A stretch of 64,000 nucleotides of DNA, taken from Verrucomicrobiota bacterium. GTDB taxonomy: Bacteria; Verrucomicrobiota; Verrucomicrobiia; Opitutales; Opitutaceae. Positions 2,144 through 61,489 of this stretch are shown piece after piece (position 1 is the first letter of the stretch; the number at the start of each line of letters is the position of its first letter). Under the pieces are notes generated by a model. The model saw only the letters and a list, made by a program, of their open reading frames with translations, did no database searches and was not told where the DNA came from. The stretch lies in the NCBI GenBank assembly GCA_018239845.1, contig JAFEGO010000092.1, positions 62,001 to 126,000 on the forward strand. Reading direction: 5' to 3'. The translations under genes and the position numbers were made by a program.

Positions 2144-2176
2144 GGACAGAATGACAGAATGCGGAGACAGAATGGG
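2144..2176 (+). repeat. half nonamer-repeat element (GACAGAATG words)
   Basis: Three near copies of the word GACAGAATG lie between the NTF2-like gene and the terminator. No inverted partner is visible here, so this looks like a half or decayed copy of the hairpin at 10061-10141, which uses the same word. Confidence 0.6.
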
Positions 2177-10055: not shown

Positions 10056-10060
10056 GGATT

Positions 10061-10141
10061 TGGACAGAATGGACAGAATTTACGGAATGGAGAACCGAAC
10101 GTTCTCATTTGGTTAATTCGGTTCATTCTGTCTAAAAGTCC
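10061..10141 (+). repeat. nonamer-repeat hairpin upstream of vanZ-like gene
   Basis: The 5' arm reads as 9-nt words GGACAGAAT, GGACAGAAT, TTACGGAAT. The 3' arm (10111-10141) carries the complement ATTCTGTC and pairs with it imperfectly. The element ends 5 nt before the TTG start proposed for the next gene, so it would fold in that gene's leader. Confidence 0.7.
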
Positions 10142-13326: not shown

Positions 13327-13404
13327 ATATTTACACCAAGGTCGCAAAGGAAGCAAAGCAGGGCAAAGGCCCCTTCGCGATCTTTGCGATCTTGGTGTAA
13401 ATAA
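13327..13404 (-). repeat. nonamer-type hairpin between rapA and helicase genes
   Basis: ATTTACACCAAGGTCGCAAAGG near 13329-13350 pairs with the complement ending at about 13404 (TTTGCGATCTTGGTGTAAAT), about 20 pairs with a few mismatches. The 5' arm is made of 9-nt words (CACCAAGGT, CGCAAAGGA, AGCAAAGCA). It begins 47 nt upstream of the helicase start and abuts the rapA stop. Confidence 0.75.
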
Positions 13405-17870: not shown

Positions 17871-17955
17871 GAGGCACGAAGGGCACGAGTGCCTCACGAA
17901 GGGATGGTCCGACCGGATGTTTTATTCGTGAGAAATGAGTGCGATTCGTGTCTCC
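17871..17955 (+). repeat. nonamer-type hairpin (CACGAA words) upstream of dioxygenase gene
   Basis: GAGGCACGAAGGGCAC at the left pairs with GTGCGATTCGTGTCTCC at the right (17939-17955), and CTCACGAA (17893-17900) pairs with TTCGTGAG (17924-17931). It lies 53 nt before the dioxygenase start. Confidence 0.65.
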
Positions 17956-18800: not shown

Positions 18801-18817
18801 GGATTGATGAGTGGCCC

Positions 18818-18850
18818 ACGGAATACACGGAAGACACGGAAAAGAGGAGC
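18818..18850 (+). repeat. half nonamer-repeat element (CACGGAANA words)
   Basis: Three 9-nt words CACGGAATA, CACGGAAGA, CACGGAAAA, the same as the left arm of the hairpin at 40763-40836, but without an inverted partner nearby. Confidence 0.65.
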
Positions 18851-18866
18851 GGCGCTGAGGAGCGGG

Positions 18867-18936
18867 GTAGGTTGCGCGCTCGCGCGCAACAGCGGCTTTC
18901 CTGGGTGGCGTTGTTGCGTGCGAGCACGCAACCTAC
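18867..18936. repeat. inverted repeat with GTAGGTTGCGCG arms
   Basis: A 24-nt arm at 18867-18890 pairs with 18913-18936 at about 22 of 24 positions, and each arm is itself partly palindromic (GTTGCGCGCTCGCGCGCAAC core). A half copy of the same word (GCGCAACCTAC) lies near 55126-55136. The function may be transcript termination between converging genes, or a REP-like element. Confidence 0.7.
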
Positions 18937-19013
18937 CGCAAGCGTGGGCGGAGTGGCTTTCTGTGGGTCAGGACGTAAAGCCCACAGATTCGGGTCAGTG
19001 GTGACCGTGCGGG

Positions 19014-19710: not shown

Positions 19711-19784
19711 GACACGAATGGCACGAATGACGCACGAATCCGGATCGGTGTTTCGTAGGCAATTCGTGTGATTCGTGTCGTGCC
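19711..19784. repeat. nonamer-type hairpin (CACGAATGN words) in a divergent spacer
   Basis: Left arm words GACACGAAT, GGCACGAAT, GCACGAAT pair with AATTCGTGTGATTCGTGTCGTGCC at the right. It lies between two divergent genes, 71 nt from one start and 106 nt from the other. Confidence 0.7.
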
Positions 19785-20708: not shown

Positions 20709-20735
20709 GGGCATGGCCCTTGGCCAATGACGAAG

Positions 20736-20815
20736 GCCTAATGACTAATGTCTAATGATCGGAGGCTCGGAGATCTGAGAGGTCTCGCGACGTTCGCGAC
20801 GGACGCGACGACGGA
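20736..20815 (+). repeat. left copy of a direct repeat flanking the TonB-C gene
   Basis: TGACTAATGTCTAATG.TCGGA followed by GGTCTCGCGACG and CGCGACGG words, shared with 22208-22266 in the same orientation. The left copy has an extra 11-nt segment in the middle. See the matching entry. Confidence 0.7.
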
Positions 20816-22134: not shown

Positions 22135-22207
22135 GAAGAAAGGGTGACCGTCAGCAGACGAATGAAGTGCCAGGAAATTAGAGAGGGAATGGAATGACCA
22201 ATGCCTG

Positions 22208-22266
22208 ATGACTAATGTCTAATGCTCGGAGGTCTCGCGACGCACGCGACGGGCGTGACGACGGAA
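22208..22266 (+). repeat. right copy of a direct repeat flanking the TonB-C gene
   Basis: Matches 20736-20815 at TGACTAATGTCTAATG, TCGGA, GGTCTCGCGACG, CGCGACGG and GACGACGGAA. The two copies flank 20857-22134 in the same direction. Confidence 0.7.
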
Positions 22267-24642: not shown

Positions 24643-24669
24643 CCACGGATTACACGAATGGCACGGATA
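24643..24669 (-). repeat. half nonamer-repeat element (CACGGATTA words)
   Basis: Three 9-nt words CCACGGATT, ACACGAATG, GCACGGATA, upstream of the hydrolase start, with no inverted partner. Confidence 0.55.
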
Positions 24670-24800
24670 GCCGATCCGGTTGAACCACTTCTGGGCACTG
24701 AGGAGCACTGATGACGAGCGGGACGGACATGGCGACGGGAACGCCTGTGCTGGTGAGCGTCGTATGAGATGGCGATGGCGCCGAAATAGGGGTTGGGGTG

Positions 24801-36189: not shown

Positions 36190-37824
36190 ATGGAGTCAGC
36201 CGTCGCAAGCCGTGAGCAGTCCGCCTCGTCGCGGTGGATCGCGGCGGCGGTGTGCGCGGTCGCGGGCGTGGCGGTGTGGCAGTTTTTCGGCAATGCGACG
36301 CGCGGGTACGTGCAGACGGACTCGATGTTCTGGTGGTGGATCAGCCAGTGGCTCGATCCGCAGGCGGAGACGGAGCACGGTTGGCTGGTGCTGGGGATCA
36401 GCGGGTGGCTGCTGTGGCGGAATTTGAAGGAAGGTTCTGGGTTCCGGGTTTCGGGTTCCGGGTTTCGGGTGGGTGATTCGGAGAGCGTATGGCCGGCGGC
36501 GGTGGCGATGGTCGCGGGGCTGGCGCTGAATCTCGCGGGGTTTGTGGCGCAGCAGACGCGCGTGGGGATCGTGGGGTTTTTGCTGTTTGCGTGGGGCGTG
36601 CTGCGGCTGGGCGGCGGGCCGCGGTGGGGACGGGCGGCGGCGTTTCCGCTGGGGTTTTTGCTCTTCGCGGTGCCGGTCAACGTGCTCGACACGGCGGGCT
36701 TCTGGCTGCGGGTGGGCGTGGTGGATGCGAGCACGGCGCTGGCGCGCGGGGCGGGCATCGCGCTCGTGCGCAACGGCACGCAGCTCTTCGCGCCCGACGG
36801 GCATTATCAATATGATGTCGTGGCGGCGTGCTCGGGGGTGCGCTCGCTGGTGGCGCTGTCGGCGCTGGCGCTGCTGATCGGGTATCTGAATTTCCGTACG
36901 TGGTGGCGGCGGGGGCTCATGCTCGCCCTGTGCTGGCCGCTGGCATTCTTGGGCAACGTGGCGCGGATGATGGCCATCATCTTTGCCGCGCAGGCGGGCG
37001 GGCAGGCGTGGGGCGAACGCGCGCACGATGTGATGGGGTATGGGGTGTTTGTGATCGTGCTGGGCGGCGTGTGGCTCGCGAGCGAGGCGCTGCGACGGTG
37101 GTGGCCGGAGCAGATCATACCGGATACCGGATCGCGGAAACCGGATACGGGAGGCCGTTGGAGGACGGTGGCGGTGGGGGTGGTCGTGGGGCTGGCGGTG
37201 GGGGAGATGTTTTTTTTGGCGCACCTCGGGTCGCTGGAGGCGCGGGGGCGGGTGGGCGTGGTGCTTACGGCGGACGGCAAGGACCCGGTGGACCTGCCGC
37301 TGTTTGTGGGGACGGAGTGGGTGGGGCGGCGCGCGGAGGTAACGGCCGTGGAGCGCGAAGTGTTGCCGCCGGATACAGGGTTTTCGCGGCGCAACTACAT
37401 CGAGGTCGCGAGCGGGCGGCACGCGGTGTTCGTCTCGGTGGTGCTAAGCGGGCGGGACCGGACGTCGATCCACCGGCCGGAAGTGTGCCTCGTCGGCCAG
37501 GGGTGGACGATCCGGGGGGCAGGGAGCCATGTTTTTAACGGCGGGGTGCCGGCGACGCTGCTGCGGACTACGCGGACGGAGGCGCGAGGCGGCAACCCGG
37601 TGCCGGCGCTGGTCGCCTACTGGTTTGTGAACGGGGACCGGGTGGTGGCGTCGCATTGGGAACGGTTTATGTGGGACGCTTGGAACCGGCTCCGGCATGG
37701 CCGCGCCGACCGCTGGGCCTACGTGCTGGTGCAGGCCGATGCGGGGGACGGCGAGGCGGCGGCGCTGGCCCGGATGCAGGCGGTGCTGGCCGGGGTGCTG
37801 CCGGGGTTGCAACTGAGGCGATGA
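36190..37824 (+). CDS. exosortase fused to EpsI domain
   Basis: A 544-residue protein: N-terminal 310 residues form the multi-span exosortase/archaeosortase core, and the C-terminal 200 form an EpsI (exosortase-associated) domain with '[11 protein letters not shown]' and '[19 protein letters not shown]'. The catalytic triad fits: C214 in [11 protein letters not shown]259 in [10 protein letters not shown] and H279 in [11 protein letters not shown]. Exosortases cut and anchor PEP-CTERM proteins at the membrane; this fits the substrate at 49893-52253. The coding sequence carries two 7-nt tandem tracts (36433-36474 and 37121-37148) that encode low-complexity loops. ATG 36190 is the first in frame. 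It begins next to the glycan genes, a usual exosortase setting. Confidence 0.92.
36433..36474 (+). repeat. 7-nt tandem tract inside exosortase gene (GGTTYYG)
   Basis: Five units GGTTCTG, GGTTCCG, GGTTTCG, GGTTCCG, GGTTTCG, then a degenerate GGTGGGT, coding for [14 protein letters not shown] in a loop. A 14-nt perfect duplication lies inside. Seven is not a multiple of three, so slippage by one unit would shift the frame. Confidence 0.9.
37121..37148 (+). repeat. second 7-nt tandem tract inside exosortase gene (CGGATAC)
   Basis: Four units CGGATAC, CGGATCG, CGGAAAC, CGGATAC, coding for [13 protein letters not shown] at the junction between the exosortase core and the EpsI domain. Confidence 0.85.
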
Positions 37825-39484: not shown

Positions 39485-39575
39485 AACCACGAAACACACG
39501 AAACACACGAAAAACACGAAACCCGTAAACGAAGGGTTTTGGATTTTCTTTCGGGTATTTCGTGTGTTTCGTGGT
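39485..39575 (+). repeat. nonamer-type hairpin (CACGAAACA words) upstream of queF
   Basis: Left words CACGAAACA twice, CACGAAAAA, CACGAAACC; right arm CGGGTATTTCGTGTGTTTCGTGGT ends at 39575. Arms pair over about 18 nt, and an inner AAACCC...GGGTTT stem sits at the tip. The hairpin ends 5 nt before the queF ATG. Confidence 0.85.
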
Positions 39576-40749: not shown

Positions 40750-40762
40750 GGAGAGAGGGATG

Positions 40763-40836
40763 CCCACGGAATACACGGAAGACACGGAAAAAAGATTCGG
40801 TTTTCCGGCATCCGTGTATTCCGTGTGTTCCGTGGG
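40763..40836. repeat. nonamer-type hairpin (CACGGAATA words) overlapping an exonuclease start
   Basis: CCCACGGAA, TACACGGAA, GACACGGAAAA at the left pair with TTTTCC..ATCCGTGTATTCCGTGTGTTCCGTGGG at the right over about 24 of 27 positions. It fills the spacer between divergent genes. Three GTG codons in frame with the exonuclease lie in its right arm. Confidence 0.9.
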
Positions 40837-41503
40837 CAACACCTGGACCGAGCAGCCGATTTTTTTCGTGGATTTCGAGGGAAGCCGCGCGTCCGGAATC
40901 CTGGAGTACGGGGTGGCTGAGGTCATCGGCGGGCGGATCGGGGCGGTGCACACACGGCTCTGCGCGGCGACCGGGCGGGTGCGGGCCGAGGACTCGGCGG
41001 TGCACGGATTGAAGGAGGATGCCCTGAAGGAGCACGCGCCGTTTGTTGATGAGTGGGAGCTTTTCGCGGGGCTGCGCGAGCGCGGACCGCTGGCGGCGCA
41101 CTATGCGGGCGTCGAAAATGCGCTGTTGAAATCGGTGTGGGCGTACCCGCGGAACTCGCCGGACTTCGCCCGCCCGGGCGAGCGCGTGATCGAGTGGGGA
41201 CCGTGGTTGGACTCAGCGCGCCTCTACGCGCAGCTATATCCGCAGATCGACACCGGCCGGCTGGAGGGAGTGGTGGCGGCGTGCGGACTCCAAGCGGAGC
41301 TGGATGCGCTGGCGGTTCAGCATTGTCCGCCGGACCGGCGGCACTACCACGCGGCGCTGTACGATGCGCTGGCTGGGGCGGTGCTCCTGACCTCGCTAGC
41401 CAAGGAGCCGCGGATCGCGGAGATGTCGGTGATGCAACTGCTGGCGCTCAGTACGCTCGACGGCGACAAGCGCGACGCGTTGCAACAGGGCGAATTGTTT
41501 TAA
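40832..41503 (+). CDS. DnaQ-like (DEDD) 3'-5' exonuclease
   Basis: A 223-residue protein with an RNase H-fold exonuclease pattern: Exo I 'FFVDFEGSRASGILEYG' (D and E), Exo II region 'LAAHYAGVENALL', and Exo III 'RHYHAALYDALAGAVLL' with a His-x4-Asp. The length suits a stand-alone exonuclease. The most likely start is GTG 40832, because the codons before it are the hairpin arm; the protein part proper begins with 'TEQPIFFVDFEG'. The gene converges with the WecG-like gene, sharing TTAA at the stops. Confidence 0.75.
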   Translation: MGNTWTEQPIFFVDFEGSRASGILEYGVAEVIGGRIGAVHTRLCAATGRVRAEDSAVHGLKEDALKEHAPFVDEWELFAGLRERGPLAAHYAGVENALLKSVWAYPRNSPDFARPGERVIEWGPWLDSARLYAQLYPQIDTGRLEGVVAACGLQAELDALAVQHCPPDRRHYHAALYDALAGAVLLTSLAKEPRIAEMSVMQLLALSTLDGDKRDALQQGELF

Positions 41504-46533: not shown

Positions 46534-46547
46534 GAAGAAGAGATGGA

Positions 46548-46678
46548 ACCACGAAACACACGAAATACACGAAAAGAAAGCCGCAGGGCGAAATAGCTGC
46601 GTAGCTGACTGGCTCCTGGAAATGGAGAAGGCCGGGCAGCGCGCCCGGCCTTTCGTGTATTTCGTGTGTTTCGTGGTT
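46548..46678. repeat. near-perfect nonamer-type hairpin (CACGAAACA words)
   Basis: AACCACGAAACACACGAAATACACGAAA at the left (28 nt, 46548-46575) has a near-perfect complement at 46650-46678. The words CACGAAACA, CACGAAATA, CACGAAAAG make the arm. Nested inside is a GGCCGGGC stem (46628-46652). It lies between two minus-strand genes. Confidence 0.93.
46628..46652. terminator. GC-rich stem inside the hairpin, possible terminator
   Basis: AAGGCCGGGC pairs with GCCCGGCCTT around a 5-nt loop. It lies between the zinc-ribbon gene stop (46681) and the HAD start, so it could end that transcript; only a short T run follows on either strand. Confidence 0.5.
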
Positions 46679-55816: not shown

Positions 55817-58330
<2,514 letters not shown>

Positions 58331-58395
58331 TCGGAAAAAATTTTAAGCGCGAAGAGGCGAAGGGGCTAAGGCCGGAAGAAGAGCGACGCCGGATA

Positions 58396-58809
58396 CTAGG
58401 GTTGGGTTTGAAAATCCAAATTCAGGATTCGGTTGATACCGTCTTTGATGAGCGGGACGTTGAAGTTGATGAGCAGTCCGAGCGGGAGCTTGAGGAGCTT
58501 TAAATAGGTGGTGACCTGAACGCGGTGGATGGGCTGGATGGCTTCGACCGTTTTCAACTCGATGAGCAATTGGTCGTTGAGGATGAGATCCAGACGGTAG
58601 GCATGATTGATGACGGTGCCGCGATAGGTAAGCGGGAGAACTTTTTCGCGTTCCACCTTGAGGCCGGCGTGAGCCAACTCGATGGCGAGGCATTCATGAT
58701 AAGCACTTTCCAGCAAACCCGGCCCCAAGGTGCGATGAACCGTCAGCGCCCCGTGCACCGCGATGGTGGCGAGCCGCTCGATTCCCTCGGGCACGGTGAC
58801 TTGGTTCAT
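58396..58809 (-). CDS. GxxExxY protein
   Basis: A 137-residue protein of the GxxExxY family, named for 'GPGLLESAYHE'. It also has 'HAYRLDLILNDQLLIELKTVE' (pattern D...ELK), the PD-(D/E)XK-like core of this group. Its biological role is not established; it is likely a nuclease-fold protein. It is inserted between gyrB (31 nt upstream) and gyrA (65 nt downstream) on the same strand. Its base composition is clearly lower in GC than both gyrase genes, which suggests later insertion. Confidence 0.88.
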   Translation of the reverse strand: MNQVTVPEGIERLATIAVHGALTVHRTLGPGLLESAYHECLAIELAHAGLKVEREKVLPLTYRGTVINHAYRLDLILNDQLLIELKTVEAIQPIHRVQVTTYLKLLKLPLGLLINFNVPLIKDGINRILNLDFQTQP

Positions 58810-58840
58810 GGCTTAGCATCTTTGCCTCTTAGCGCTTAAC

Positions 58841-61489
<2,649 letters not shown>

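Follow-up and report, generated by a model that had tools for sequence, protein, structure and literature searches.

The hairpins of tandem 9-nt words in the window (the whole 64-kb stretch of DNA analyzed here) are read, with moderate confidence, as the non-autonomous copies within a class of selfish elements, small and located in short intergenic spaces, REPIN-like in form, for which the GxxExxY protein would serve as the word-recognizing factor. A complete element is proposed to consist of a word array, a gene for a GxxExxY nuclease of the PD-(D/E)XK family, and the same array inverted. In each array a word of 7-8 nt would be repeated three to four times, neighboring copies being separated by 1-2 free bases, which gives a period of 9 and sometimes 8, and the two inverted arrays would be the ends of one unit. 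The original prediction of a REP-like family maintained by some factor holds up in this form, with GxxExxY as a candidate factor that occurs in this genome together with these arms.

Hairpins and single arms in the window

All seven full hairpins that had been predicted are present (Table 1), with folding energies of -35 to -78 kcal/mol, and the predicted period of nine is specific: seven three-copy arrays, defined by two or fewer varying columns, occur at period 9 and none at periods 8 and 10-15. The expected enrichment over shuffled DNA is likewise present, with eight strong inverted repeats in the window versus 0.0 in shuffles; the arms of four of these eight have period 9, and those of none have any other period. 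The hairpins at 17871 and 13327 depart in part from regular word spacing (9, then 10-11). The arms are made of tandem direct words, and an internal palindrome is absent from them. Among the predicted half copies, two (18818 and 24643) prove to be genuine single arms and the third (2144) is irregular; the single arms at 20783 and 22234, as well as the GxxExxY gene with inverted arrays at 58396-58809, are additions to the prediction.

Table 1. Coordinates of hairpins, single arms and the GxxExxY locus in the window
Feature	Position	Strand	Description
Weak single arm	2144-2176	+	GACAGAAT words, spacing irregular
Full hairpin	10059-10136		Words ACAGAATGG; found by folding and inverted-repeat scan
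Full hairpin	13328-13403		Arm TTTACACCAAGGTCGCAAAGGAAGCAAAG, matching arm of GxxExxY gene G000:C108; strong inverted repeat
Full hairpin	17871-17955		Words CACGAAGGG, spacing irregular; found by folding
Single arm	18815-18847	+	CACGGAATACACGGAAGACACGGAA
Full hairpin	19711-19784		Words CACGAATNN; found by folding
Single arm	20783-20814	+	TCTCGCGACGTTCGCGACGGACGCGACG; word type of GxxExxY element G000:C20
Single arm	22234-22262	+	TCTCGCGACGCACGCGACGGGCGTGACG; same word family as 20783-20814 arm
Single arm	24643-24671	+	CACGGATTACACGAATGGCACGGAT; word type of GxxExxY element G000:C74
Full hairpin	39485-39575		Words CACGAAACA; strong inverted repeat
Full hairpin	40761-40838		Arms GCCCACGGAATACACGGAAGACACGGA, shared with GxxExxY element G000:C105
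Full hairpin	46547-46678		Arms AACCACGAAACACACGAAATACACGAAA, perfect inversion; 76-nt loop with nested GC-rich hairpin
gyrA	55817-58330	-	Neighbor of GxxExxY gene, same strand
Arm 3' of GxxExxY gene	58343-58373		8-nt-period words (GCGAAGAG GCGAAGGG GCTAAGG)
GxxExxY gene	58396-58809	-	137 aa, PD-(D/E)XK nuclease family; PF13366 and TIGR04256
Arm 5' of GxxExxY gene	58811-58840		Inverted partner arm
gyrB	58841-61405	-	Neighbor of GxxExxY gene, same strand

Several other repeats accompany these features. The stretches 20722-20815 and 22190-22265, separated by 1.5 kb, repeat in direct orientation one composite in which a 7-nt array (AATGACT type, resembling IVP arms) is followed by a CGCGACG 9-nt arm, and right-hand partner arms are absent nearby. 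Convergent genes enclose a strong inverted repeat without the 9-nt period (18866-18937, GGTAGGTTGCGCGCTCGCGCGCAACAGCG), which lies just past the 18815 single arm, and an exosortase reading frame (36190-37824) contains two 7-nt tandem arrays, GGTTCCG at 36433-36470 and ATACCGG at 37117-37152. The long loops of the 46548-46678 hairpin and of two others (L077, L078) contain nested stems (GGCCGGG...CCCGGCC or a GGCAGGCGTCCCTGCC repeat), which look as if a second element or a terminator had been captured.

In the genome of origin (G000, a 4.23-Mb draft for which counts were taken from pattern searches and stretches), perfect CACGAA-NNN triplets number 27 and the reversed pattern is absent; relaxed CACRRA arrays number 105, against four for the reversed pattern. 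The scan of related genomes that the prediction had called for revealed CACGAA arrays in 17 of 57 relatives and control matches in none. The hairpin catalog of the own genome holds 36 members, extragenic and built of conserved inverted arms around a short variable spacer. Their loops are mostly unrelated to one another, and the exact recurrence of a whole hairpin was found once, with one of the two sites at a contig end of the draft; loop homology as proof of copying was dropped, resting on this single exact pair. Three window hairpins were compared with the same-genus genome G001: the hairpin at 46547-46678 is missing at the matching place, the slot of the 39485-39575 hairpin is occupied by a different, 7-nt-like hairpin, and the hairpin at 40761-40838 is common to both genomes and is therefore the oldest of those checked.

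It had also been claimed that full copies lie upstream of genes, and this is true of all those in the window. Genome-wide the rule fails, the neighbors of 33 hairpins being co-directional in 22 cases, convergent in seven and divergent in four, a distribution judged the same as that of ordinary window spacers (21, 7 and 8, respectively). A promoter or regulatory role was rejected on this lack of orientation preference. The wider reading that the hairpins are host regulatory or terminator structures serving the adjacent genes would account for their snug fit between stop and start codons, from which the hairpin edges lie a few to about 30 bases away, and for the terminator-like stems in some loops. 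It is nevertheless very improbable, considering that the orientations equal those of baseline spacers, that close relatives have most of the slots tested either empty or filled with something else, and that the same words bracket nuclease genes. At the outer edge, an apparent insertion motif (CTGATTTTT) noticed by eye was rejected: GATTTT lies within 22 bases in 5 of 52 CACGGA arms, and the motif frequently overlaps a TGA stop. No obvious target site duplication was found in the listed flanks, nor was a precise recent filled/empty pair among them, and no transposition event or intermediate was seen among the genomes compared.

The GxxExxY gene and its element-specific words

Between gyrB and gyrA, the window carries a GxxExxY gene whose two flanking arms match each other in inverted orientation (z = 8.4). 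Its product scores 133.3 bits against PF13366 (6.8e-39; cut-off 22) and 136.7 bits against TIGR04256 (cut-off 35). In 67 aligned GxxExxY proteins, E34 and D74 are invariant, and E84 and K86 are kept at 90% or more, these four residues being the expected PD-(D/E)XK set. An AlphaFold2 model (pLDDT 86) has SSO0001 as its best solved match (Z 9.5); many PD-(D/E)XK nucleases come next, with Z values below 8. Together, the retained active-site set and the predicted fold make it very likely that GxxExxY is a working nuclease. Hjc resolvases are also among the matches, at Z 5.5-6.6, under the level where fold implies kinship, and no function is deduced from them.

Arms and gene behave as one unit at other loci as well. 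Both at the C105 locus of the own genome and in the relative G021, two arms 390-420 bp apart enclose exactly one gene, which is GxxExxY (TIGR04256, E about 1e-39; also PF13366). When the upstream flank was compared with the reverse-complemented downstream flank (match threshold, a score of at least 14), the own flanks matched in 63% of 30 GxxExxY loci of relatives, compared with 5% when the flanks came from different GxxExxY loci and 0 in shuffled sequence. In 78 GxxExxY loci of GTDB genomes from about ten phyla (Verrucomicrobiota, Planctomycetota, Kiritimatiellota, Lentisphaerota, Calditrichota, Acidobacteriota, Myxococcota, Omnitrophota, Bacteroidota, Pseudomonadota and others), the corresponding values are 76% for own flanks and 24% for other loci. 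Period 9 was found at 38 of 80 GxxExxY loci versus 0 expected, other periods from 7 upward reaching at most 2, and it was found at none of 19 large Y1 transposase loci used as controls. One GxxExxY gene (L358, G016:C3:278978-279319) has 7-nt-type flank words (CCAGGAAACCAGGAATCAGG...CCTGGCTTCCGGC) and is an exception to the link between period and gene family. Tandem short words can grow by replication slippage, and chance slippage might thus produce arrays; as a sole cause it is refuted by the inverted pairing, leaves the partner arms, the period-gene family link and the genome-wide copies of the same words unexplained, sits poorly with reversed controls near 0, and has virtually no chance of being the explanation.

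The GxxExxY copies examined in the own genome use different words, namely CACGGAA (C105), CACGGAT/CACAGAT (C74), CGCGACG (C20), GCAAAG (C108) and the 8-nt GCTAAGAG type of the window copy (C115). Four of these five word sets (C105, C74, C20 and C108) recur as gene-less arms in the same genome; the C105 arms, for instance, are those of the abundant CACGGA hairpins. The C20 arm pattern was found in 37 arms of the own genome, 18 of G016, one of G027 and none in 54 other genomes, its reversed pattern had no match in the own genome, and eight hairpins with C20 words were read. The C108 pattern was found in 19 arms of the own genome, including the window hairpin at 13328 with zero mismatches, in 62 arms of G006 and in eight of G021; its single match in G027 adjoins a GxxExxY gene. 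Across 94 GxxExxY loci, protein identity correlates with word similarity (Mantel r 0.55, p 0.001), which would fit specific recognition but also plain inheritance of whole units with no binding involved. Words and genes also occur apart: no GxxExxY gene matching the CACGAA word was found in the own genome among the five of six copies checked, G015 and G025 have CACGAA arrays with GxxExxY not detected, and G016 has CGCGACG arms, yet its three GxxExxY genes have other flanks.

GxxExxY genes are present in 39 of the 57 genomes examined. A search in phages gave no match, and among plasmids eight records were found, none with a filled/empty pair. The GxxExxY tree contains well supported groups that mix phyla (e.g., a Zetaproteobacterium with a Calditrichia, 100/96), a pattern that would be in line with transfer, with the caveat that bins can hold foreign contigs. 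A GTDB record titled as a Klebsiella pneumoniae MAG (L254) has a GxxExxY gene that groups with Planctomycetes, and this bin is likely mislabeled or mixed.

A parallel 7-nt class around 23S rRNA IVP genes

Genes of the 23S_rRNA_IVP family (four-helix, S23), present in 37 of the 57 genomes, are bracketed likewise in the same genomes, with words of 7 nt. Period 7 was found at 25 of 30 IVP loci versus 0.7 expected, and a second IVP sample across the phylum gave 16 of 27 loci at period 7, seven at period 8 and none at 9. Own-flank matches reached 57% in the first sample and 48% in the second, compared with 2.5% and 1.3%, respectively, at other loci, and IVP protein identity is related to arm similarity (r 0.22, p 0.003). 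The period thus goes with the protein family, being 9 or 8 for GxxExxY and 7 or 8 for IVP, with 8 shared, and we take the 7-nt/IVP elements to be a second class, parallel to the first, with the same design and another protein. IVP genes on cyanobacterial plasmids are also bracketed by 7-nt words (CAGAATTCAGAAGTCAG..., GGGTGTA). On a plasmid of Picosynechococcus sp. PCC 7003 (L319), a type III-B CRISPR operon contains an IVP gene that is flanked by inverted short words and has cas10/cmr2 on one side and cmr3 on the other.

The gyrB-gyrA space provides a view of one slot across relatives. It holds GxxExxY in the own genome and is empty, with a length of 54 bp, in the same-genus G001; it contains an IVP gene with 7-nt arms in G002, G018, G028 and G030, 7-nt gene-less hairpins in G014, G022 and G023, and gene-less hairpins of 6-nt words (CGTTCT), a third period, in G004 (L285) and G031 (L293). 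Several other relatives have it empty. Hairpins at slots where relatives hold a gene would be expected if GxxExxY or IVP bound its own flanking arrays to regulate its own expression and the gene-less copies were remnants after gene loss, and the protein-word correlation would also follow. Such self-regulation leaves the tens of same-word gene-less copies per genome at unrelated places unexplained, as well as the inverted arrays on both sides, and we consider it improbable. As a generalization that is plausible and still tentative, a new mobile element class in ten or more bacterial phyla may exist in which GxxExxY or IVP reads inverted element-specific words and the protein family sets the period.

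Apparent word conservation, proposed mode of action and known systems

That period and fold are kept and words differ, as originally proposed, is true between word families, which share the same design and always have the same word in both arms. Within a word family it did not stand up: arm pairs of one hairpin were no closer to each other than randomly re-paired arms in four families (p = 0.42, 0.41, 0.86 and 0.91), and the predicted pairing-preserving changes, sought as compensatory covariation between arms, were found in none of the four. An apparent covariation, in which the second word of several hairpins alternated between CGCGAAG and CGCGACG in both arms, vanished once all pairs were counted. 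Free bases fall between words, where the word-based patterns used for locus finding bias formal counts of free positions. Because the arms of one hairpin agree no better than re-paired arms, the words rather than the fold appear to be kept within a word family; the words are probably protein targets, and the pairing of the arms looks like a consequence of the same word being used twice.

These results bear on an RNA-level element, in which a passenger ORF in the operon mRNA would be enclosed by the paired arms and then removed or silenced by RNase III. The layout is that of the Coxiella 23S rRNA IVS, in which RNase III cuts the inverted ends that enclose an S23 ORF (PMC4990558). Gene-bearing elements are oriented with their operon (32:6 and 32:7 co-oriented with neighbors), also in plasmid examples such as the IVP gene between cas10 and cmr3, and this strong co-orientation is not predicted by simple DNA insertion unless antisense copies are lost. 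On the transcript, however, arm differences have no bias toward G-U pairs over A-C mismatches (126 vs 147 for gene-bearing elements; 36 vs 45), which together with the absent covariation speaks against selection on RNA pairing, and the gene-less hairpins have no preference for co-directional spaces. An RNA-level element is therefore judged unlikely. The differences from the Coxiella IVS go further: the 9-nt class carries GxxExxY instead of S23/IVP, which is the cargo of the 7-nt class only, and the elements lie between protein genes rather than inside 23S rRNA, with tandem-word arrays as ends.

For the preferred reading, a selfish element with a word-recognizing nuclease, we infer that the GxxExxY nuclease recognizes its own word array and would act in trans on all units with its word, whether gene-bearing or gene-less. 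Such action would spread or preserve the units, by analogy with the role ascribed to RAYT transposases in the life of REPINs, and cutting by the nuclease, the active site of which is intact, may be what moves or fixes the elements.

REPINs are extragenic, occur in many copies and consist of a pair of conserved arms, inverted relative to each other, on either side of a variable spacer (PMC3116915). The gene-less extragenic hairpins described here resemble them, with lengths of about 70-130 bp, inverted conserved arms, variable loops, tens of copies and many single-arm remnants; their genome also contains a gene for a candidate enzyme with these arms on its two sides. The hairpins differ from REPINs in arm structure, tandem words of 7-8 nt separated by free bases taking the place of one palindromic REP; the enzyme belongs to the PD-(D/E)XK family and is not a Y1 transposase; and each genome has several GxxExxY genes, each with its own word. 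That the hairpins are ordinary REPINs moved by RAYT (Y1) transposases, an idea favored by these likenesses and by RAYT-like Y1 genes in the same genomes, is extremely improbable: flanks of the Y1 genes examined have either nothing comparable or classic single-palindrome REPs without 9-nt words, and period 9 occurs at 0 of the 19 large Y1 loci. The small RAYT genes of the same genomes (L149-L156) have REP-like palindromic flanks of the GCCCCAACGGGGC type and represent a separate known system. The hairpins are like MITEs in being short and gene-less with inverted ends, and in sharing these ends with a gene-bearing relative in the same genome, provided that the GxxExxY element is the autonomous one; a classical transposase is absent, target duplication was not seen and the loops are mostly unrelated.

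The accessible parts of earlier reports describe intergenic tandem heptamers comparable to the words around cyanobacterial plasmid IVP genes, namely GGGAATC in Xanthomonas and GGGGA(T/C)T in Nostoc (PMC4692102) and TAACTGA in Beggiatoaceae (PMC4679880). In those parts, 70-75 inverted pairs per genome are given for the Xanthomonas heptamers, no general link with mobile elements was found for those of Xanthomonas and Nostoc (PMC4692102), and a partner gene is named in neither source; the inverted heptamer layout around IVP genes is new. By extension, the IVP gene XCC0516 of Xanthomonas campestris, the product of which has a solved structure (2gsc), is predicted to lie between inverted heptamers of the GGGAATC type. 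In the literature searched, which lay mostly outside subscription journals, GxxExxY and non-rRNA IVP genes were never tied to inverted word arrays, and the term GxxExxY occurred in two of 5.4 million papers, once in each. The element system is widespread and apparently undescribed; we rate it as a variant of the REPIN/IVS kind that has a fair chance of forming a separate class.

The small orphan families GxxExxY and IVP are both common and lack an agreed role, and their link with inverted arrays turns them into a testable element system. If the proposed explanation is true, both families would gain a role, many unexplained 7- and 9-nt intergenic repeats would be explained, and an origin would be offered for the heptameric repeats described without a cause in cyanobacteria and Xanthomonas. 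If the nuclease reads its word, these elements would provide a large natural collection of small nucleases whose matched target arrays are diverse in sequence.
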